Below are positions 14,067 through 58,584 of a stretch of DNA of 64,000 nucleotides, in pieces; the first letter of the stretch is position 1; every line of letters starts with the position of its first letter. Position numbers and translations under genes: made by a program. The DNA comes from Prolixibacteraceae bacterium (lineage in GTDB: Bacteria; Bacteroidota; Bacteroidia; Bacteroidales; Prolixibacteraceae). The DNA is taken from assembly GCA_025355875.1 (NCBI GenBank), contig JANXYV010000157.1, positions 1 to 64,000 of the forward strand, read 5' to 3'. The notes below the pieces were generated by a model. It ran no database searches. It worked only from the letters and a program-made list of their open reading frames with translations, and was not told the DNA's origin.

Positions 14067-16328
14067 TTATTTTTTTACGATTTTACAGCTTCCTGATGCT
14101 TTTCCGTCGATCTTGAGCTGAAGCATGTAAATTCCTGACGACAACGAAGAAGATTCTTCAGGACTGAACTGATAGCTGTTGGAAGCCTGATTGAGACTGC
14201 TTACAGAGATCGTTTCTATTTTTTGTCCTGAACTGTTGTAAACCTCAAGTGACTTCTCTTTTCCCCGATCAGCATCTGACAGGTAAATGAGCAGCGTTAT
14301 CTGGTTCATAAACGGATTTGGAAAGGCACTCTCAATTTTTGAAGCACTTGGATTTGGGCTGATCATTTTACTTTCGTAGGTAGCACCAACAGCGCCTCCG
14401 AAACTTCCTCCGCCAATGGCATTGTCCGAAACACCCTGTGGCATTGGATTTGGCACAACCACCCGGGTGGGCACGCCGCCTTCATTTCTGATGACCGAAT
14501 CAATGGCCACAAACGAAGTGTATTCGGTCAACAGGTTGTATTTCAGTCCCAGTTCTACGATTTTGCTTTTAATTCCGGTGGTATCCAGCGAACCATAGTC
14601 GCTCAGCAATTGCAGTCGTTGCCTGGCCCATAAATAGCTCAGGGCTTTGTTTTTCTCCGAAGGCGGATAGTCGCTGAAATTCAATGTTTTTGAAAAGGGA
14701 ACATTACTCCCGGCGGTGCCTTCGAGGGTCATTGATCCTTGCAATGGTTTTTCCCATTTTCCAAAGATTAAAATAGGTCGTTCTGCGAAAACGTCAGGAA
14801 TGGAAAGGGGTTCAATGTCAGAAACAGTAATGTCGCTAAAACTGGCCTTGATTTTGGTTAAAACCGGGCTGGCTACATAGTTTTTAAACAGATCGGCCTT
14901 TGCTTTGGCTTCGGTTTCGTTCAGAACAATGAACGGTTCGCCCATTCCGGCGTGGGCAAGGCCTTCGATGAGGTACCGGTTCACAGCCTTACCTATTCCG
15001 AAAGCAAAGAAATTGGCCTTGTTCAGGTTATTCCGGACCAAATCAAATGCTTCTTTTTCGACAGTAACATATCCATCGGTGGCGATCATCATGATTCTGG
15101 AAAACTGGTTGTCGGCGGGATAGGAGATGGCTTTCTGAAGCGCCGGAAGCAGCTCTGTTCCGCCTGAACCTTCCAGTTTTGAGATGAAATCCAGTGCTGT
15201 TTCCACGTTTTGGGCTGAAGCCACTTTGGATTCATCAAACAGGAAGTTTGAACCTCCGGAAAAGCAAAGAATGTTGAATTTTTCCTGAGGTTTCAGGTTT
15301 TGGATGATGGCTGCAGTCAGTTTTTTGGAAGTTTCAACCGGAAATCCGGACATTGAACCCGATACATCCAGGATAAAAATGTATTCGCGAAGATTAATAT
15401 CTTCCGGAGCTGGCGATTTAGGGGGTTGAATCATCGACAAAAAGAAATTCTCCTCTTTTCCTTCATACAAAAGCATTCCGGTTTTATTCTTTTCGCCGGC
15501 CAGAACATAATCGAGCACAAAATCCCGGTTTCCTGAAAGGGAATCATTTTTCGGCAAGGTACATTCGGCCAGATTCTGACTCAGGTACTTGATCTCCAAA
15601 CTGTCGTGAGAAGGGCAGTTGATGGCCGAAACCGGCATTCCGCCATCAACGGTAACCGCCATATTGAAGGTGCTTTTCGGAGCTTGTCCCTGGTGAGTGT
15701 ATGGAATTTCAACCCAGGTACTATCCTTCGGGTCGGAGTGCGTTTGACTGAAATACCGTGGCCCAACCACCGTTGGGTAAACAAATTCATAAATCCCATT
15801 CACCGGAGTGATCAGTTCGGTGTATTTGAGCACGATGTTGATGGTATCGCCCGGCATAATATTTCCGACTTTCATTTGCAGCACATTCGGACGGTTCTGT
15901 TCGAGCAAGGTTGCAGTTTGGCCATTGTTGACGGCATTTTGGTAATCTTGTTGGGCTTTTTCTTTCTCTTCGATTACTGCGGTTAAAATACGGCTGCCGA
16001 TGATCATTTTCAACTGGTAAACGGCCGCTTTGGTCGATGCCGGAAAAATGTATTTCGATTCAATGGCTGTGGTTCCGGTATTCATGTATTGTTGCCGGAT
16101 GGTGACATCGGCAATTACGCCAACAATTGAAACATCGACTTTCGTTGATTTAAGCGGAAGTGAATCGACAGTCGAATCTTTGCACTCGACATAAAAGTAC
16201 GGGGAAATAGTCTTGTCTTCCACGACAGGTTCCTGTGCCCTAATATGTTCGGAGCAAAGCACGACGACTAAAACCAGGATCAGGAATGAAGCAAATAAGT
16301 GGGAATTGATCGGTAGAATTTTTTTCAT
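14067..16328 (-). CDS. VIT and VWA domain surface protein with T9SS sorting domain
   Basis: 753 residues. Signal peptide (FASFLILVLVVVLCSE) is followed by a VIT domain (about 45-180: TKVDVSIVGVIADVTIRQQY, then 'YIFPASTKAAVYQLKM' and EKEKAQQDYQNA), then a von Willebrand A domain starting near 312 with an intact MIDAS (D-V-S-G-S at about 320) and later 'MIATDGYV'. The last 85 residues form a T9SS type-A sorting domain (SAFPNPFMNQITLLI, then VYNSSGQKI, and LSSGIYMLQLKIDGK). It is therefore predicted to be exported across the outer membrane and attached to or released from the surface. VIT-VWA proteins resemble inter-alpha-trypsin inhibitor heavy chains and bind ligands through the metal site; the ligand is unknown. 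Confidence 0.88.
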   Translation of the reverse strand: MKKILPINSHLFASFLILVLVVVLCSEHIRAQEPVVEDKTISPYFYVECKDSTVDSLPLKSTKVDVSIVGVIADVTIRQQYMNTGTTAIESKYIFPASTKAAVYQLKMIIGSRILTAVIEEKEKAQQDYQNAVNNGQTATLLEQNRPNVLQMKVGNIMPGDTINIVLKYTELITPVNGIYEFVYPTVVGPRYFSQTHSDPKDSTWVEIPYTHQGQAPKSTFNMAVTVDGGMPVSAINCPSHDSLEIKYLSQNLAECTLPKNDSLSGNRDFVLDYVLAGEKNKTGMLLYEGKEENFFLSMIQPPKSPAPEDINLREYIFILDVSGSMSGFPVETSKKLTAAIIQNLKPQEKFNILCFSGGSNFLFDESKVASAQNVETALDFISKLEGSGGTELLPALQKAISYPADNQFSRIMMIATDGYVTVEKEAFDLVRNNLNKANFFAFGIGKAVNRYLIEGLAHAGMGEPFIVLNETEAKAKADLFKNYVASPVLTKIKASFSDITVSDIEPLSIPDVFAERPILIFGKWEKPLQGSMTLEGTAGSNVPFSKTLNFSDYPPSEKNKALSYLWARQRLQLLSDYGSLDTTGIKSKIVELGLKYNLLTEYTSFVAIDSVIRNEGGVPTRVVVPNPMPQGVSDNAIGGGSFGGAVGATYESKMISPNPSASKIESAFPNPFMNQITLLIYLSDADRGKEKSLEVYNSSGQKIETISVSSLNQASNSYQFSPEESSSLSSGIYMLQLKIDGKASGSCKIVKK

Positions 16329-49342: not shown

Positions 49343-49410
49343 AGAGTTTTACTGCGTTTATGTACTGCAAAAATAAGGACTTTTTCGATCTTTTATATAC
49401 CTTTGCCGCC

Positions 49411-49590
49411 GATAAGGTTCCTAATTTTGGGATTAAAAGGGAAACAGGTTATCCGGAGAATCCGGCAATTCCTGTACAGTTCCCGCTGCTGTGATTCCTG
49501 TACAACTCTTTCACGAAGAACCACTGTTGGCCATCCGGCTGACGGGAAGGCGTCAAAGAGGGGATAAGTCAGAAGACCTGCCCGATCATG
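49411..49590 (+). promoter_or_regulatory. Adenosylcobalamin riboswitch
   Basis: The leader has the family sequence blocks in order: GGTTCC followed by GGGATTAAAAGGGAAACAGG, AATCCGGCAATTCCTG, CCCGCTGCTGTG, then CACTG, GGCCATCCGGCTGACGGGAAG, GGGATAAGTCAGAAGACCTG. The last one is the B12 box (AGTCAGAAGACCTGCC; consensus AGYCMGGARACCTGCC). The stretch is on the + strand directly before the three-gene B12 uptake unit. B12 binding normally lowers expression of transport genes. Covariation could not be computed, but the primary motifs are distinctive. Confidence 0.93.
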
Positions 49591-49660
49591 TATGGATTTT
49601 GACGCTTTCGGAGAAAAAGCATAAAACCGTGTAATCTTTTCAATTTTCATTCCTGAAAAG

Positions 49661-49700
49661 CTGCAAAATCCAATTCCTAATTAAGATTTTACAGCAGATG
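49661..49700 (+). promoter_or_regulatory. Candidate riboswitch expression platform (start-site hairpin)
   Basis: CTGCAAAATC (49661-49670) can pair with GATTTTACAG (49685-49694) with one G-T pair. The hairpin ends three bases before the ATG at 49698, so its formation could hide the start region. How it couples to the riboswitch is inference. Confidence 0.5.
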
Positions 49701-52124
49701 TTTCAAAGTAAAAACATTTATCAAAACCTTCCCGGAATCATGCTCATTTTGCTGGCATGGAACTCTGATGCACAGTTTGCATCGAAGGTGATTGATTTTA
49801 CACCAGCACCTGGACAATATACCAATGCCGATTTTTTAGGCACACCTTCAGCAGCTAATTCAATTGTTGGTACAAACAAGGGAATGGTTAGTCTGGGTGC
49901 TTTTGGCGGATCAATCACAGTGTATTTCGAACATGGAATTCACAATGATCCGGCCAATCCTTATGGCGTCGATTTCACCGTTTACGGAAATGCCACTCCA
50001 ACCTGGTCGGAGCCGGGAATTATTCAGGTGATGAAAGATGAAAACGGAAATGGAATTCCTGACGAAACCTGGTACGAAATCGCCGGAAGCGACCATTTCT
50101 GGAATACAACCAATTTATCGTATGAAGTCACTTATCAGAATAGCGGTCTGAACTTTGCGAGTAATATTCAATGGACAGATAATCAGGGCAAATCCGGGTT
50201 CATTCCCGTAAACAGTTTCCATCAGCAACCGTATTATCCCAAACCTGATCTGTTTCCCGAAGTTTCAACCGACCACTATACGTTGAAAGGTACCCGGATC
50301 GCAGGGCAAATCGATTTATCAAACCCCGGAGTGGTGAATTCCTACCACCGGGCATTCGGATATGCTGATAACACTCCGGTACTTTCTTATACTGAAAAAT
50401 TGCCTGATAATCCATATACGCCTGAAATTGAAGGAAGCGGAGGTGATGCCATAGATATTGGCTGGGCGGTTGACAAGGATAGAAAACCAGTACATCTCGA
50501 TGAAATTCATTTTATCCGGATTTATACCGGAATGAACGCACTGGCAGGCTGGCTGGGCGAAATATCGACTGAAGTGACCGGAATCCGCGATGTTGAACCT
50601 GCCACAGTTACTGGCGTCCATTCGATGGTTGTGATTCAGGATTTGCCGACTAAAATCAGGCTTGGTGAATCACTCAATCTGAATGCCATTGCTTTTGAAA
50701 GCGGAATCAGGCAGGAAAATACCCCAATAATCTGGACGGTCGATCAGCAGGAACTGGCAGGCATTGAAAACAGTTGGATCATTGCTAAAAAGGATGGCAT
50801 TATTCGGCTTCGCGCAACCTCCGGAGCAAATTCAGAAGTGTTTGCAGAGAAAGAAATTGAGATATTTTCGGCTGCCAAAGCGACAATTACAGTTCCTTCA
50901 ACAAGCTTGAAAATAAATGACAAGATGGATTTGTCCGGAAAACTGACTGATCAAAACGGGAACGCGATTTCAGGAATATCAATCAGTTGGCGAATTGATA
51001 ATGAGAATATTGCGAATATAACAACACTCGATGGAAAATACTTCCTGAACGGAAAACAGACCGGGAAAAGCTGGCTGGTTCTGGAAATTCCGGATATTCC
51101 ATCCCTTCGCGATTCTGTACTCATCGAGGTATTGCCTGAATCTGTCAGGAAGAAAGTTTTTATTTCTGTGAAAACGAGTGAAAAAACGCTCTTGCCGCTG
51201 CATTCGGTTTGGGTCGATCAGGTTGATCTGACTCCATGGGTCGACCGTCACCAAAAATTTTACGGACTTCAGGATATCAAGTTTGTTTCTTTGGCTCATG
51301 CGATTGCCGCTGCCTTCAAAAATACTGACTTGGAAAACGAATGGGCATTCAGAGACGATGCTGAGGGCGGATCAGTCTTGTATCTGTGGAAAGTTCCCGA
51401 AATTGAAGAGGGTTCGACCAGCTTTGATTTTGGATATGGCGGCTCAAGAACTTCAGACGCTTACCGGAAAACATGGATGGTTCTCCTGAATCAGCAACCC
51501 ATTCTTTCAGGTTTCGATCAGGTGAAAGTGAATAATAACGATGAAATACTTGTATATCATGTTATTGACAACGCTTTGCCCTGGCAGGTTACACAACTTG
51601 CTATGAAGAATGATACCGTAAAGACGAACGAATTGATTGAAATACAGCTCCGGAAATATTTTTGTTCGATGGGCGATAACCGCAATGTTTCAGTGAATTC
51701 TTCAGAGGTCATTGCCAATCAGGCGGTGAAACTGATGTCTAAAAATCAGGAAAACAATCCCGTCAGTTTTATGACGGATGAGTTTGGCAAAGTCCTTATA
51801 TCAGAAGAAAATGCAGGTGATTACATGGTGACATCCGGTATTGATGCCGCAAACCTAGCGGTTGAATCAGCAACCGGAATCAAAGCTTTGGCAAATAATC
51901 CATTGATCTGTAAGGTTTTTCCCAATCCATTTTCTGAAAAATTCCGGATACAATGTGTTTTCCCGATCACATCAATCGAAATCCATGATCCGCAAGGAAA
52001 ACTGGTCTTTCATCAAACCGGACTTTCACCCGAAGTGAATTTAACTACCATTTCATCAGGAGTTTACATTTTAAGCATCCATTCAGGGACTCAGGTTTTC
52101 AGGCAAAAAATGATAAAAAATTAG
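49698..52124 (+). CDS. T9SS-exported multidomain surface protein of B12 locus, with transcobalamin-like domain
   Basis: 808 residues. Signal peptide (GIMLILLAWNSDAQ) is followed by a first domain (about 25-310: YTNADFLGTPSAANSIVG, a Ca-binding-like DENGNGIPDETWYE at about 115, and GGDAIDIGWAVD), of the cell-surface protein type that accompanies BtuB genes in Bacteroidota. Two Ig-like segments (about 310-475) follow. Residues 480-640 look like DUF4430, the beta-domain of transcobalamin/intrinsic factor (KTWMVLLNQQPI and VNNNDEILVYHV as the typical G-W-x-x-x-V-N-G and G-D-E-I pattern). The last 75 residues are a T9SS sorting domain (CKVFPNPFSEKFRIQ, then IHDPQGKLV and TISSGVYILSIHSG). Under the riboswitch it probably binds or delivers cobalamin; binding is inferred. 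Confidence 0.78.
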   Translation: MFQSKNIYQNLPGIMLILLAWNSDAQFASKVIDFTPAPGQYTNADFLGTPSAANSIVGTNKGMVSLGAFGGSITVYFEHGIHNDPANPYGVDFTVYGNATPTWSEPGIIQVMKDENGNGIPDETWYEIAGSDHFWNTTNLSYEVTYQNSGLNFASNIQWTDNQGKSGFIPVNSFHQQPYYPKPDLFPEVSTDHYTLKGTRIAGQIDLSNPGVVNSYHRAFGYADNTPVLSYTEKLPDNPYTPEIEGSGGDAIDIGWAVDKDRKPVHLDEIHFIRIYTGMNALAGWLGEISTEVTGIRDVEPATVTGVHSMVVIQDLPTKIRLGESLNLNAIAFESGIRQENTPIIWTVDQQELAGIENSWIIAKKDGIIRLRATSGANSEVFAEKEIEIFSAAKATITVPSTSLKINDKMDLSGKLTDQNGNAISGISISWRIDNENIANITTLDGKYFLNGKQTGKSWLVLEIPDIPSLRDSVLIEVLPESVRKKVFISVKTSEKTLLPLHSVWVDQVDLTPWVDRHQKFYGLQDIKFVSLAHAIAAAFKNTDLENEWAFRDDAEGGSVLYLWKVPEIEEGSTSFDFGYGGSRTSDAYRKTWMVLLNQQPILSGFDQVKVNNNDEILVYHVIDNALPWQVTQLAMKNDTVKTNELIEIQLRKYFCSMGDNRNVSVNSSEVIANQAVKLMSKNQENNPVSFMTDEFGKVLISEENAGDYMVTSGIDAANLAVESATGIKALANNPLICKVFPNPFSEKFRIQCVFPITSIEIHDPQGKLVFHQTGLSPEVNLTTISSGVYILSIHSGTQVFRQKMIKN

Positions 52125-52128
52125 TCCA

Positions 52129-54120
52129 TTGAAATCAGCAAAGGAAAACCATTCAGAAGTTAAGTTCAAAGTATTGCTTTGTATGGTTATCCTTTTTATT
52201 TATTCTGAAAGTGTTAAATCACAGAAGCTTACTGATACAATACCGCTTCACGAAGTGCGGGTTTATGGCGTCCGCAACCTGGCACAGGCAGGACTTCAGG
52301 TCAACCGCATCGATACCCTTGCCTTGCAGATGATGAAAACCCAAACCATTTCGGAGTTACTGAGTTTCTATTCGCCCATATTTATAAAATCGTACGGTCG
52401 GGGTTCTACGGCGTCCGCATCGTTTCGGGGAACCGCTCCTTCGCACACACAGCTCTACTGGAACGGCATCAAATTGAATTCGCCCATGCGCGGCGAGGTC
52501 GATTTCTCGATGTTTCCGGTGTATTTTATTGATGATATCAGCATTTTACCGGGCGGAAGTTCACTCCAATCGGGTTCAGGCGCTTTGGGCGGAACCGTGT
52601 TAATCAACAACCTACCTGACTGGAACTGTCGGCTGAACATCCGGTACATACAGACTATCGAGAGTTTTTCAACTTCTAAGGAATATCTGAATGTTGGGTT
52701 TGGAAACCGCAAAATCCAGTTTAAAACCCGTCTGTTTTCGGAACAAAGCAAAAACGATTTTTCATATTACAATTATGGTGTTTTGCCAATGTATGAAACC
52801 GTTCAGAAGAATGCGGCTTTTAACAAAAAAGGTTTACTTCAGGAAGTTTATTCCCGCCTCAAAAATCATCTTTTTTCAGCAAAAGTGTGGGCAACCCGCA
52901 GCCATCGCGACTTACCTCAGCTTATGTCGTTCGAAGGCGAGTCAAGGACTGAAACTCAGGAGGACCAAAATCTCCGGACAATCCTTTCGTGGAAGTATTT
53001 GGCCGAAAAAAGCAAATTGGAATGGATCGGTGGATTGAATTTCAATAAATTGCACTATTTCAGGGCAAGCAGCGAGGCCAATTTTGTGAATTTCGACAGC
53101 CAAAGCAAAGAGAGCAGTTACACGAGCCAATTCAGTTATGACTGGAAACCCAAAGAGGCTTTCAGCTTCAACTGGGCCTTGAATGCAGCTTATGATCGGG
53201 TGTCTGTTTACGAACAGGTTCAGAAAACTGGCTACGACAAAGATCGTTTGTCAGTCTCTCTCCTGAATGCCGCCCATTGCCAGCCACTTCCTGAAGTATC
53301 ACTTTCGTTATTAATTCGCAGTGAATTGTATGACAGTAATTTAATTGGATTTATTCCATCGTTAGGGATTGAATATTCGCCCGATAAAAAGCAGCAAAAC
53401 CTGTTTAAAATGAATCTTTCACGCAATTATCACCAACCGGGTTTAAATGATTTGTACTGGATTCCGGGAGGAAATCCAAATCTGAAGCCGGAAAAAGGAT
53501 TTGCCGCTGATTTAAGCTATGGTTATTCATTCAGGAACGAAAAAACTATGTTTTCGGCTCAGGCAACCGGTTTCGCATCCAAAATTGACGATTGGATCGT
53601 TTGGCAGCCCTCGGCTTCCGGAGCATCTTACTGGGAGGCCAGCAACCTTCGGCAAGTTATGGTAAAAGGCGCCGAGTTTCAGGTTTCTTGGCAATCGAAT
53701 ATTGCGAATACGGTTCTTGTCAATCTGAGAGGCAATTATTCGTACACCGCCACTTCCAACATGGATGCGGTTCCGTCGGTAGACGAGTCGCGAGGTAAAC
53801 AGCTGATTTACATTCCAAAAAATAAGGCAAACATTTTTGGTGAAGCCGACTATCGGGATTTTTATCTGAAAATTGATGCTCCATTTACGGGTAAGCGTTA
53901 CACTTCAAGCAACAATGTGGAATCGGACTATGAAAAGGTGCTGAATCCATACTGGCTGATCAATCTGAGTGCAGGGAAAAGGTTTAATTTTAAACCTGTG
54001 CAAGTGGATGCTTCGCTGAACGTTGAAAACCTGGCTAACACCGATTATATGGCTATTCTGTGGCGGCCAATGCCCGGAAGATATTATTCTTTAACCATTC
54101 AATTTCAACACAGAAGGTGA
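52129..54120 (+). CDS. btuB: TonB-dependent cobalamin receptor, BtuB-like
   Basis: 663 residues starting at TTG 52129, 4 bp after the previous stop; no ATG fits the signal peptide better (LLCMVILFIYSESVKSQ). A TonB-box-like IPLHEVRVYG is followed by the plug domain (SELLSFYSPIFIKSYGRGSTASASFRGTAPSHTQLYWNGIKL, then ISILPGGSSLQSGSGALGGTVLIN) and a 22-strand barrel ending NVENLANTDYMAILWRPMPGRYYSLTIQFQH, the usual C-terminal pattern. No carboxypeptidase-regulatory extension, so a BtuB-type rather than SusC-type receptor. Function in B12 uptake is assigned from the riboswitch and neighbours. TonB-energised, outer membrane. Confidence 0.87.
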   Translation: MKSAKENHSEVKFKVLLCMVILFIYSESVKSQKLTDTIPLHEVRVYGVRNLAQAGLQVNRIDTLALQMMKTQTISELLSFYSPIFIKSYGRGSTASASFRGTAPSHTQLYWNGIKLNSPMRGEVDFSMFPVYFIDDISILPGGSSLQSGSGALGGTVLINNLPDWNCRLNIRYIQTIESFSTSKEYLNVGFGNRKIQFKTRLFSEQSKNDFSYYNYGVLPMYETVQKNAAFNKKGLLQEVYSRLKNHLFSAKVWATRSHRDLPQLMSFEGESRTETQEDQNLRTILSWKYLAEKSKLEWIGGLNFNKLHYFRASSEANFVNFDSQSKESSYTSQFSYDWKPKEAFSFNWALNAAYDRVSVYEQVQKTGYDKDRLSVSLLNAAHCQPLPEVSLSLLIRSELYDSNLIGFIPSLGIEYSPDKKQQNLFKMNLSRNYHQPGLNDLYWIPGGNPNLKPEKGFAADLSYGYSFRNEKTMFSAQATGFASKIDDWIVWQPSASGASYWEASNLRQVMVKGAEFQVSWQSNIANTVLVNLRGNYSYTATSNMDAVPSVDESRGKQLIYIPKNKANIFGEADYRDFYLKIDAPFTGKRYTSSNNVESDYEKVLNPYWLINLSAGKRFNFKPVQVDASLNVENLANTDYMAILWRPMPGRYYSLTIQFQHRR

Positions 54121-54203
54121 AAACAAAAAGGAAAGAGGACGACGGAAAGGGAGAAAAGTCATTAGTCATTCCCAATCCTGACTTCATAGTGGGACGAATA
54201 GTG

Positions 54204-55364
54204 ATGAAAAGAATTCAGTCATTCGGAAATTCTCTGAAAATATTTTTTCTAATGCCCTATGACTTTTTACTTTCCGTTCTGAAAGGACGAATTGGAAAGT
54301 CCCTGGTTTTACTCGGAATCTTGCTTTTTTCTTGTTCGAAAAACCCTGTGGATACCGTGTTTTTTGATTTCACAGGGAATCGGGGTGTGTATATTGTCAA
54401 TCAGGGGAATTTTATGTACGGAAATTCATCCTTGTCTTTTTATGACCCTGCATCAAAAAGGGTATATAATCAGGTTTTTCAGGCCAGGAATGGCGTCCCT
54501 CTGGGCGACGTAGCAGAATCCATGACCATCTGGAAAAACCTGGGTTTTATTGTGGTCAACAATTCCGGGAAAATCTATGTGATTGACTCGCGAACTGCCG
54601 AATTTAAAGGCAGTATTACCGGTTTAAGTTCACCAAGGTACGTGCATGTTATCAATCCTGAAAAAGCGTATGTCACGGATCTGTTTGCCCATAAAATCAC
54701 GATTTTTAATCCACAGACTTTTCAGGTCACTGGCCATATTCCGGTCAATAATTCCAAGTCAGAATTTAATCAGCATCCCACCGAGCAAATGGTTCAGTAT
54801 AAAAATCAGGTTTTCACCAACTGCTGGTCGTACGACAATAAAATACTGGTAATAGACTCAAATACTGATCATCTGATTGATTCAATTGAAGTGTTTAAAC
54901 AACCAAACAGTATGGTTATTGACCGGGGAAATAAAATTTGGGTATTGACTGACGGAGGTTTTGAGGGAAGTCAGTTTGGTTATGAAAAACCGGGCTTGCT
55001 TAAAATTGATGCCGAAACTCATGAAATTGAGCGGACATTTCGCTTCGAATTGGGCGAACATCCGCTGAGCCTTTCCATCAATTCAACCAAAGATACCCTG
55101 TATTATATCAATGGGCATGTCTGGAAAATGGCAATCTCCGAAAAGCATCTTCCGGAAAGTCCATTCATTCAATCGGAATATACGGATTCGTACGGCGGGT
55201 TCTTCAGTTTAGGAATCGATTCGGTAAGTTCGGAAATTTATGTCGGAGATGCGATTGATCACAGGCAAAATGGAATAGTCTACCGGTATTCTTTGTCCGG
55301 AAAACTCATCGATCAGTTTAAAACCGGAATTTCACCAGGCTCTTTTGCCTTCAAAAAAGAATAG
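54204..55364 (+). CDS. btuG: BtuG-like DUF5074 beta-propeller lipoprotein
   Basis: 386 residues from the ATG at 54204 (an ATG at 54252 is an alternative; upstream sequence overlaps btuB in another frame). Lipobox LLGILLFSC gives a lipoprotein. The body is a YncE/DUF5074-type seven-bladed propeller: repeated blades such as GVYIVNQGNFMYGNSSLSFYDP, KIYVIDSRTAEFKGSITGL, AYVTDLFAHKITIFNPQTF, ILVIDSNTDHLIDSIEVFKQPNSMVIDRGNKIWVLTDGG. BtuG of Bacteroides is such a propeller that captures B12 with very high affinity and sits on BtuB. It is the third gene of the riboswitch-controlled unit. Confidence 0.82.
   Translation: MKRIQSFGNSLKIFFLMPYDFLLSVLKGRIGKSLVLLGILLFSCSKNPVDTVFFDFTGNRGVYIVNQGNFMYGNSSLSFYDPASKRVYNQVFQARNGVPLGDVAESMTIWKNLGFIVVNNSGKIYVIDSRTAEFKGSITGLSSPRYVHVINPEKAYVTDLFAHKITIFNPQTFQVTGHIPVNNSKSEFNQHPTEQMVQYKNQVFTNCWSYDNKILVIDSNTDHLIDSIEVFKQPNSMVIDRGNKIWVLTDGGFEGSQFGYEKPGLLKIDAETHEIERTFRFELGEHPLSLSINSTKDTLYYINGHVWKMAISEKHLPESPFIQSEYTDSYGGFFSLGIDSVSSEIYVGDAIDHRQNGIVYRYSLSGKLIDQFKTGISPGSFAFKKE

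Positions 55365-56822: not shown

Positions 56823-58584
<1,762 letters not shown>

Follow-up and report, generated by a model that had tools for sequence, protein, structure and literature searches.

The stretch of DNA analysed here, called the window, comprises 64,000 nucleotides of a Prolixibacteraceae genome (assembly GCA_025355875.1, contig JANXYV010000157.1, positions 1 to 64,000) and holds a three-gene unit led by a cobalamin riboswitch. A preliminary description had proposed such a vitamin B12 unit, and its outline holds: the aptamer is followed by genes encoding a BtuH-domain protein (gene 1), a BtuB-type transporter (gene 2) and a BtuG-type protein (gene 3). Gene 2 starts 4 nucleotides after the end of gene 1 (52124 to 52129), and gene 3 ends at 55364. 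Judging from the sequence, the unit is probably a capture operon induced by B12 starvation, in which a BtuH-type protein exported by the type IX secretion system (T9SS) would feed a BtuB-BtuG pair. Its features, all on the plus strand, are as follows.

49398 to 49599, plus: cobalamin riboswitch aptamer (RF00174, matched over its full length by cmscan with 89.9 bits, E 6.4e-21; gathering score 31.5)
49600 to 49697, plus: leader from aptamer to start codon, ~100 nucleotides, strongly conserved
49698 to 52124, plus: gene 1, T9SS-tailed BtuH-domain protein of 808 amino acids
49698 to 49772, plus: signal peptide, type I-like by eye (...DAQ/F cleavage), no cysteine; seen in relatives too
49761 to 50594, plus: BtuH B12-binding domain, residues 22-299 (matches to 8blw_B and 7biz_A)
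50595 to 51128, plus: two immunoglobulin (Ig)-like domains, residues ~300-477 (sub-cut-off matches such as Big_1; all-beta in the model)
51129 to 51662, plus: domain resembling DUF4430 and the transcobalamin beta domain, residues ~478-655 (profile comparison and fold model)
51663 to 51914, plus: beta-rich linker region, residues ~656-739 (strands in the model)
51915 to 52121, plus: T9SS type A sorting domain, residues 740-808 (PF18962 36.6 bits, cut-off 27; TIGR04183 39.3 bits, cut-off 23)
52129 to 54120, plus: gene 2, BtuB-type TonB-dependent transporter (8bmx_C, E 1.1e-94; Plug domain)
54204 to 55364, plus: gene 3, BtuG-type beta-propeller, probable lipoprotein (DUF5074, PF16819, above cut-off)

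Gene 1, its export route and its partners

By its sequence, gene 1 is a BtuH-domain protein with an added DUF4430-like domain and not mainly a transcobalamin-like one. Against the BtuH domain of 8blw_B, a BtuG1 chain with a fused BtuH domain, residues 22-299 give an E of 7.2e-42; for that of 7biz_A (BtuH2) the match covers residues 25-299 with an E of 3.1e-35. In a fold search with the full-length AlphaFold model of gene 1, the BtuH entries of 8blw and 7biz occupy ranks 1 to 3. The preliminary description had called the product a large transcobalamin-like protein; the region behind that name is present, but the BtuH domain had been missed. Excerpts of PMC8941943 name eight residues of BtuH2 that contact B12, and five of them are identical in gene 1 (Q333, N399, H476, W577 and L578, corresponding to Q40, N98, H175, W285 and L286). 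The closest named relatives of gene 1 (L031-L036, labelled Prolixibacteraceae or Bacteroidetes/Bacteroidota) share 74-82% identity with it in the BtuH domain.

Between the BtuH and DUF4430-like domains lie the Ig-like segments, which had been described together with the signal peptide. The latter can be recognised by eye, while the Ig-like segments are found only at sub-cut-off level in gene 1; in one relative, L020, Big_2 scores above its cut-off in this region. The beta-rich linker accompanies the DUF4430-like domain in relatives. Neither Prenyltrans nor Cobalamin_bind matches gene 1 at E ≤ 1, which indicates that the alpha-alpha toroid of transcobalamin is missing.

The N-terminus of gene 1 contains neither a cysteine nor a lipobox, so that the lipoprotein export signal of Bacteroides thetaiotaomicron BtuH is not seen here. 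With a T9SS tail at the other end, gene 1 is therefore filed as a BtuH-domain protein and not as a BtuH lipoprotein. The earlier proposal of a T9SS tail in place of lipidation thus agrees with both the sorting-domain scores and the missing lipobox. Two T9SS components were searched for in the same genome and both were found, SprA with 2696 bits and the T9SS sortase with 1214.6 bits. Because tail, SprA and sortase occur together, we infer that gene 1 is secreted via T9SS and crosses the outer membrane by this route. In a 767-amino-acid open frame on the minus strand of the window, the T9SS sortase model weakly matches positions 14088-14327 with its C-terminal end, and this is probably another T9SS cargo tail.

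Cargo with a type A tail is often retained on the cell surface, which argues against the idea that the gene 1 protein is cleaved free, binds B12 in the medium and returns it to BtuG-BtuB in the manner of a protein siderophore, or "cobalophore". The sequence itself speaks for neither fate, and in mixed communities a carrier open to all would come at a high cost. In favour of release are the type A tail standing where a lipid anchor would be and the proposal, in excerpts of PMC12751083, that BtuJ-bearing vesicles of B. thetaiotaomicron act analogously to siderophores. We regard a released carrier of this kind as unlikely.

Genes 2 and 3 were identified in the preliminary description as BtuB-like and BtuG-like, and matches to PDB chains bear this out. 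Gene 2 matches the BtuB chains of Bacteroides strongly (8bmx_C, as listed, and 8p98_A with an E of 3.6e-93); its match to TIGR01779 (E 3.8e-23, 81.9 bits) lies below that model's cut-off of 599.7. Gene 3 matches BtuG structures with an E of about 1e-106 (8bmx_D, E 1.4e-106). The open reading frame (ORF) listed for gene 3 opens further upstream with a GTG; with the ATG at 54204 as start, a lipobox-like signal, LFSC, can be read by eye.

The leader between aptamer and gene 1 offers some clues to how the riboswitch may act. Two segments, GGATTTTG upstream and GATTTTACAGC downstream, are each able to pair with GCTGCAAAATCC in the leader, and across 12 aligned leaders the GGATTTTG and GCTGCAAAATCC arms are invariant and the GATTTTACAGC arm is partly conserved. 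Since the leader folds no better than chance (z -1.26; 26 of 200 shuffles equally good), switching by alternative helices around GCTGCAAAATCC is only suggested. No terminator-like site was found on the plus strand of the leader, and the evidence therefore leans towards a riboswitch acting on translation.

The genes flanking the unit lie on the minus strand, PhoH upstream and two small ORFs downstream that resemble Lrp/AsnC regulators by eye. Further on, at 56970-57476 of the window, a 168-amino-acid ORF begins like a histidine kinase (motif seen by eye) but does not keep up the kinase pattern, and the gene may be broken.

The DUF4430-like domain

The pattern of DUF4430 (PF14478) that had been noticed in this part of gene 1 is real, although it lies under the Pfam cut-off: the domain scanned alone scores 15.5 bits against the required 23.8, and a scan of the whole gene 1 protein gives no DUF4430 match at E ≤ 1. 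A Pfam DUF4430 search of the window's genome and 295 sampled genomes of its class returns no match at E ≤ 0.001, and the Pfam model is therefore blind to the domain at that level. By sequence, the domain finds nothing relevant in the PDB, either singly or as a profile, and its sole profile match, ribosomal protein L20 (E 0.46), was dismissed as chance. Among 25 members of the domain family, nine match DUF4430 (best E 0.0018), while every other Pfam family matches one member at most; as the members are related, the nine matches are not nine independent events. Aligned by hhalign, a profile of the domain (25 rows, none of them clostridial) and a DUF4430 profile built from 11 clostridial (Firmicutes) domains gave a probability of 94.7% and scored 51.8 across 122 columns. 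Decoys, made up of 100 column shuffles, five unrelated profiles of other domains and the profile in reverse, scored 18.9 or less. Alignment A4 covers 25 of the 29 distinct DUF4430-like stretches (L007, L009, L011 and L014 omitted). Alignment A5 covers 11 of 15 DUF4430 matches, leaving out L149, L151 and L154, which are below the cut-off, and L152, whose stretch held a stop. Alignment A1 holds 16 of 30 loci, with three partial, five near-duplicate and six differently built loci omitted.

An AlphaFold2 model of the region (pLDDT 88.6, pTM 0.84) finds haptocorrin, transcobalamin or intrinsic factor, three related proteins, at all of ranks 1 to 17 in the PDB, the best with an E of 1.9e-3, and the bacterial protein 3u7z at ranks 18 and 19. 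The structural match to the transcobalamin fold, whose absence was among the outcomes named as refuting the earlier proposal, is found, with a model that is partly circular, as three of the 31 rows in its alignment were clostridial DUF4430 domains. The matches to the three B12 carriers show 9-20% identity. TM-scores for ranks 1 to 17 are 0.29-0.41 by query length, and by target length 5np4, the transcobalamin beta domain on its own, reaches 0.47 and 3u7z 0.66.

Several results speak for the competing view that the resemblance is a product of chance or modelling and that the fold is unrelated. No PDB match of the model reaches an E of 0.001, and the DUF4430 score itself is below the cut-off. 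Searched with the hidden Markov model (HMM) of the domain, two clostridial genomes rich in DUF4430 yield nothing at E ≤ 1. An AlphaFold model without DUF4430 rows, that of the full-length protein, gives residues 481-630 a block pLDDT of only 24-49; it was dropped for this region as too poor. Set against all this is the hhalign score, obtained without the three circular rows and far above every decoy, and the fact that DUF4430 alone among Pfam families matches repeatedly, in nine of the 25 (interrelated) members. An unrelated fold is in our judgement very improbable, and we hold it very likely that the region is related in fold to DUF4430 and the transcobalamin beta domain.

Relatives and a second riboswitch locus

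The distribution of this architecture was followed in the best 79 of at least 564 confirmed candidate loci from named genomes. As they were chosen for being most similar to the BtuH domain of gene 1, these 79 are not an even sample; weak, short BtuH matches (L122-L137) are excluded from every count. Their BtuH ORFs divide into 42 with a T9SS tail, as called with a local model built from gene 1 relatives, 41 closed ones lacking a tail and four cut at a contig end. TIGR04183 (E ≤ 0.01, last 90 residues) agrees with this division, matching 42 of 42 tailed ORFs versus 2 of 41 closed tail-less ones. By a simple regular expression, a lipobox-like signal occurs in 25 of the 41 tail-less versus 2 of the 42 tailed ORFs. 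In 34 of the 42 tailed cases btuB follows within 400 nucleotides, and in 32 the order is that of the window, BtuH, BtuB, BtuG (H-B-G); among tail-less relatives, by contrast, 23 of 41 stand directly after btuG. Of the 79 loci, 11 were scanned for RF00174; in ten of these a match precedes the BtuH gene and shares its strand, and in eight it ends no more than ~100 nucleotides before the open frame. The exceptions are L041, where a DUF4465 ORF intervenes, L058, where the match is 1.5 kb upstream, and L061, with no match.

Two loci, L026:457-1500 and L067:4870-5997, carry a region of ~350 amino acids N-terminal to BtuH that has no Pfam match at E ≤ 0.01 and is possibly another B12-binding module. 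In L070, L072, L074 and L077 (Bacteroidales; one is labelled Bacteroides nordii), a tail-less BtuH gene comes right after btuB-btuG, and further downstream lies a second BtuH protein of 1163-1425 amino acids with a T9SS-like tail; there are few Pfam matches ahead of that tail in L070, L072 and L074.

The DUF4430-like domain occurs in 36 of 140 genomes of the window's family, including 18 of 23 in the genus, and outside the family in L061 (labelled Fulvivirga sp.). Among 395 genomes sampled across the phylum, only the window and L185 were matched, and L185, phage-tail-like by eye, was rejected as unrelated. In 30 of the 36 genomes the loci were checked, and 29 of the ORFs also hold a BtuH domain; the thirtieth starts at a contig end.

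Two functions can be weighed for the domain on these counts. The first is that it and BtuH close like a clamp over one B12, in the way that transcobalamin holds one B12 between its alpha and beta domains, or that they bind two. This would fit with the shared fold, with the near-constant pairing in family loci and with excerpts of PMC5599065, which describe crystals of the human transcobalamin beta domain by itself with cyanocobalamin (CNCbl). BtuH and DUF4430 also meet in one polypeptide in clostridia, in L076 (above cut-off) and L071 (19.9 bits, below). However, two Ig-like domains lie between the supposed jaws in gene 1, the transcobalamin toroid is absent, and 30 of the 42 tailed BtuH ORFs do without a DUF4430-like domain (27 plain, three fused to DUF4465), all of which leaves the clamp rather unlikely. 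The second is that the domain has no role in B12 binding and either lends structure or docks the protein, to BtuB/BtuG or surface polysaccharide for instance. Its presence in 12 of the 42 tailed ORFs shows that it is optional, and 3u7z, which follows the B12 carriers in the ranking of the model's matches, bears the title of a putative metal-binding protein. That its nearest folds are B12 carriers and that its checked ORFs pair it with BtuH argue the other way, and we see a structural or docking module as plausible without being quite probable.

A further fusion joins two different B12-binding folds, DUF4465 and BtuH, in one T9SS-tailed protein ahead of btuB (L042:1-2601, L043:3-1823 and L044:3-1997). 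DUF4465 ORFs occur in 22 of the 79 loci, and 17 of the 22 are T9SS-tailed, including the three fusions. Such a gene is also found elsewhere in the window's genome, behind the only cobalamin riboswitch match besides 49398-49599 (C46:12111-12296):

L189:4409-5368, which is G000:C46 ~12.4-13.4 kb: T9SS-tailed DUF4465 (BtuJ-type) protein

This protein of 319 amino acids matches DUF4465 with an E of 6.2e-55, has a T9SS tail of 52.4 bits and carries MNTPGY, close to the MNTPSY given as the BtuJ motif in excerpts of PMC12751083. No DUF4430-like domain was found in it, and the ORFs listed in its surroundings (L189:3453-7363), judged by eye, include neither btuB nor btuG. As it is tailed as well, both riboswitch matches of the genome lead a T9SS-tailed B12-type protein. 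A search for CbiC in this genome gave no match and was positive in 7 of 14 control genomes; the organism is a probable corrin auxotroph, which would depend on imported corrinoids.

Known systems and the proposed working

BtuH1 and BtuH2 of B. thetaiotaomicron (7biz; PMC8941943) are among the closest known counterparts of gene 1. They share with it a homologous B12-binding domain and, for BtuH2, Ig-like modules, and their locus likewise has a riboswitch, BtuB and BtuG. According to excerpts of PMC8941943, they are lipoproteins with the B12 domain at the C-terminus, whereas in gene 1 the BtuH domain comes first, the signal is type I-like, the chain ends in a T9SS tail and the DUF4430-like domain is added. 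The preliminary description had set the unit apart from known BtuG/BtuH lipoprotein loci; this is apt for the export route, but the protein is still a BtuH-domain protein. BtuGH (BtuG1) of the same species (8blw; PMC10404256) also has BtuH fused to another module and works with BtuB; unlike gene 1, it is lipidated and the module is the BtuG propeller. DUF4465/BtuJ proteins (PMC12751083, PMC13398666) are extracellular B12-binding proteins as well, with a different fold. The beta domain of transcobalamin, haptocorrin and intrinsic factor (5np4, 4kki, 3kq4) provides the fold predicted for residues ~478-655, and the alpha toroid of that family is absent from gene 1. Lastly, the clostridial L076 (Anaerophilus nitritogenes) and L071 (Clostridiales bacterium SIT11) combine BtuH and DUF4430 as gene 1 does, so BtuH domains occur outside Bacteroidota; they have SLH domains instead of a T9SS tail, and L076 also shows matches to Prenyltrans and Cobalamin_bind (PF01122). 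Both SLH-bearing proteins are giants, with 2535 amino acids in L071:1900-9504 and at least 3454 in L076:1-10362, where the frame leaves the locus.

What appears new against known BtuH proteins is thus the exchange of lipidation for a T9SS tail, the BtuH domain in first position and the added transcobalamin-beta-like domain. In open-licence PubMed Central literature, we found no paper combining BtuH with T9SS or DUF4465 with type IX, and none joining vitamin B12-binding, sorting domain and Bacteroidota; in the same collection, DUF4430 and transcobalamin occur together in work on vertebrate carriers. The term "T9SS" is absent from PMC8941943, PMC10404256 and PMC13398666. Sorting tails on B12-binding proteins are still not wholly new. 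The relevant entry is IPR026444, which we take to be the T9SS sorting entry. Excerpts of PMC12751083 (Juodeikis et al. 2025) report it in 229 of 824 DUF4465 proteins.

By the precedent of its family, the riboswitch would leave the mRNA active when B12 is scarce. The gene 1 protein would then use Sec to cross the inner membrane and T9SS to cross the outer one, and would be shown on the cell or released. Outside the cell its BtuH domain would, by homology, bind cobamides, with the Ig-like domains as spacers and the DUF4430-like domain as a second B12 contact or site or as a means of docking the protein to a partner. Captured B12 would move to the surface BtuG protein and on to BtuB, driven by TonB energy, as published for B. 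thetaiotaomicron, where BtuG hands B12 to BtuB and BtuH may load BtuG (excerpts of PMC10404256).

Some observations pull against a T9SS-exported BtuH-type protein feeding BtuB-BtuG. Three of the eight BtuH2 contacts are changed in gene 1 (F401 to T, Y510 to V and W511 to V); two of these lie where the alignment is poor. In eight of the 42 tailed cases btuB does not follow the BtuH gene; L045 and L048 end at contig ends, whereas L058, L066, L070, L072, L074 and L077 do not. Tailed relatives L045 and L047 have a cysteine near the signal cleavage site. The absence of CbiC concerns a single marker in a 98%-complete assembly. Excerpts of PMC13398666 describe more than 70% of DUF4465 proteins as predicted lipoproteins and the remainder as having periplasmic signals, and this is hard to square with T9SS export being widespread among B12-binding proteins.

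The BtuH papers we found concern lipoproteins of gut Bacteroides. Here the BtuH domain is T9SS-tailed in many Bacteroidales, usually at the head of an H-B-G unit, and in one lineage it is joined to a domain of transcobalamin-beta fold. Whether surface B12 capture must be lipid-anchored thereby becomes a directly testable question. A more ambitious reading, which we hold to be doubtful, is that gene 1 is a T9SS-exported carrier whose BtuH and transcobalamin-beta-like domains both hold B12 and which, with the T9SS-tailed DUF4465 protein, forms a scavenging set in which the exported binders do without a lipid anchor. The interest of the unit is solid and not exceptional, unless the DUF4430-like domain proves to bind B12. 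If both domains do so, pieces of the animal B12 carrier would be at work in bacteria, and gene 1 would be an exported or surface-displayed bacterial counterpart of transcobalamin.

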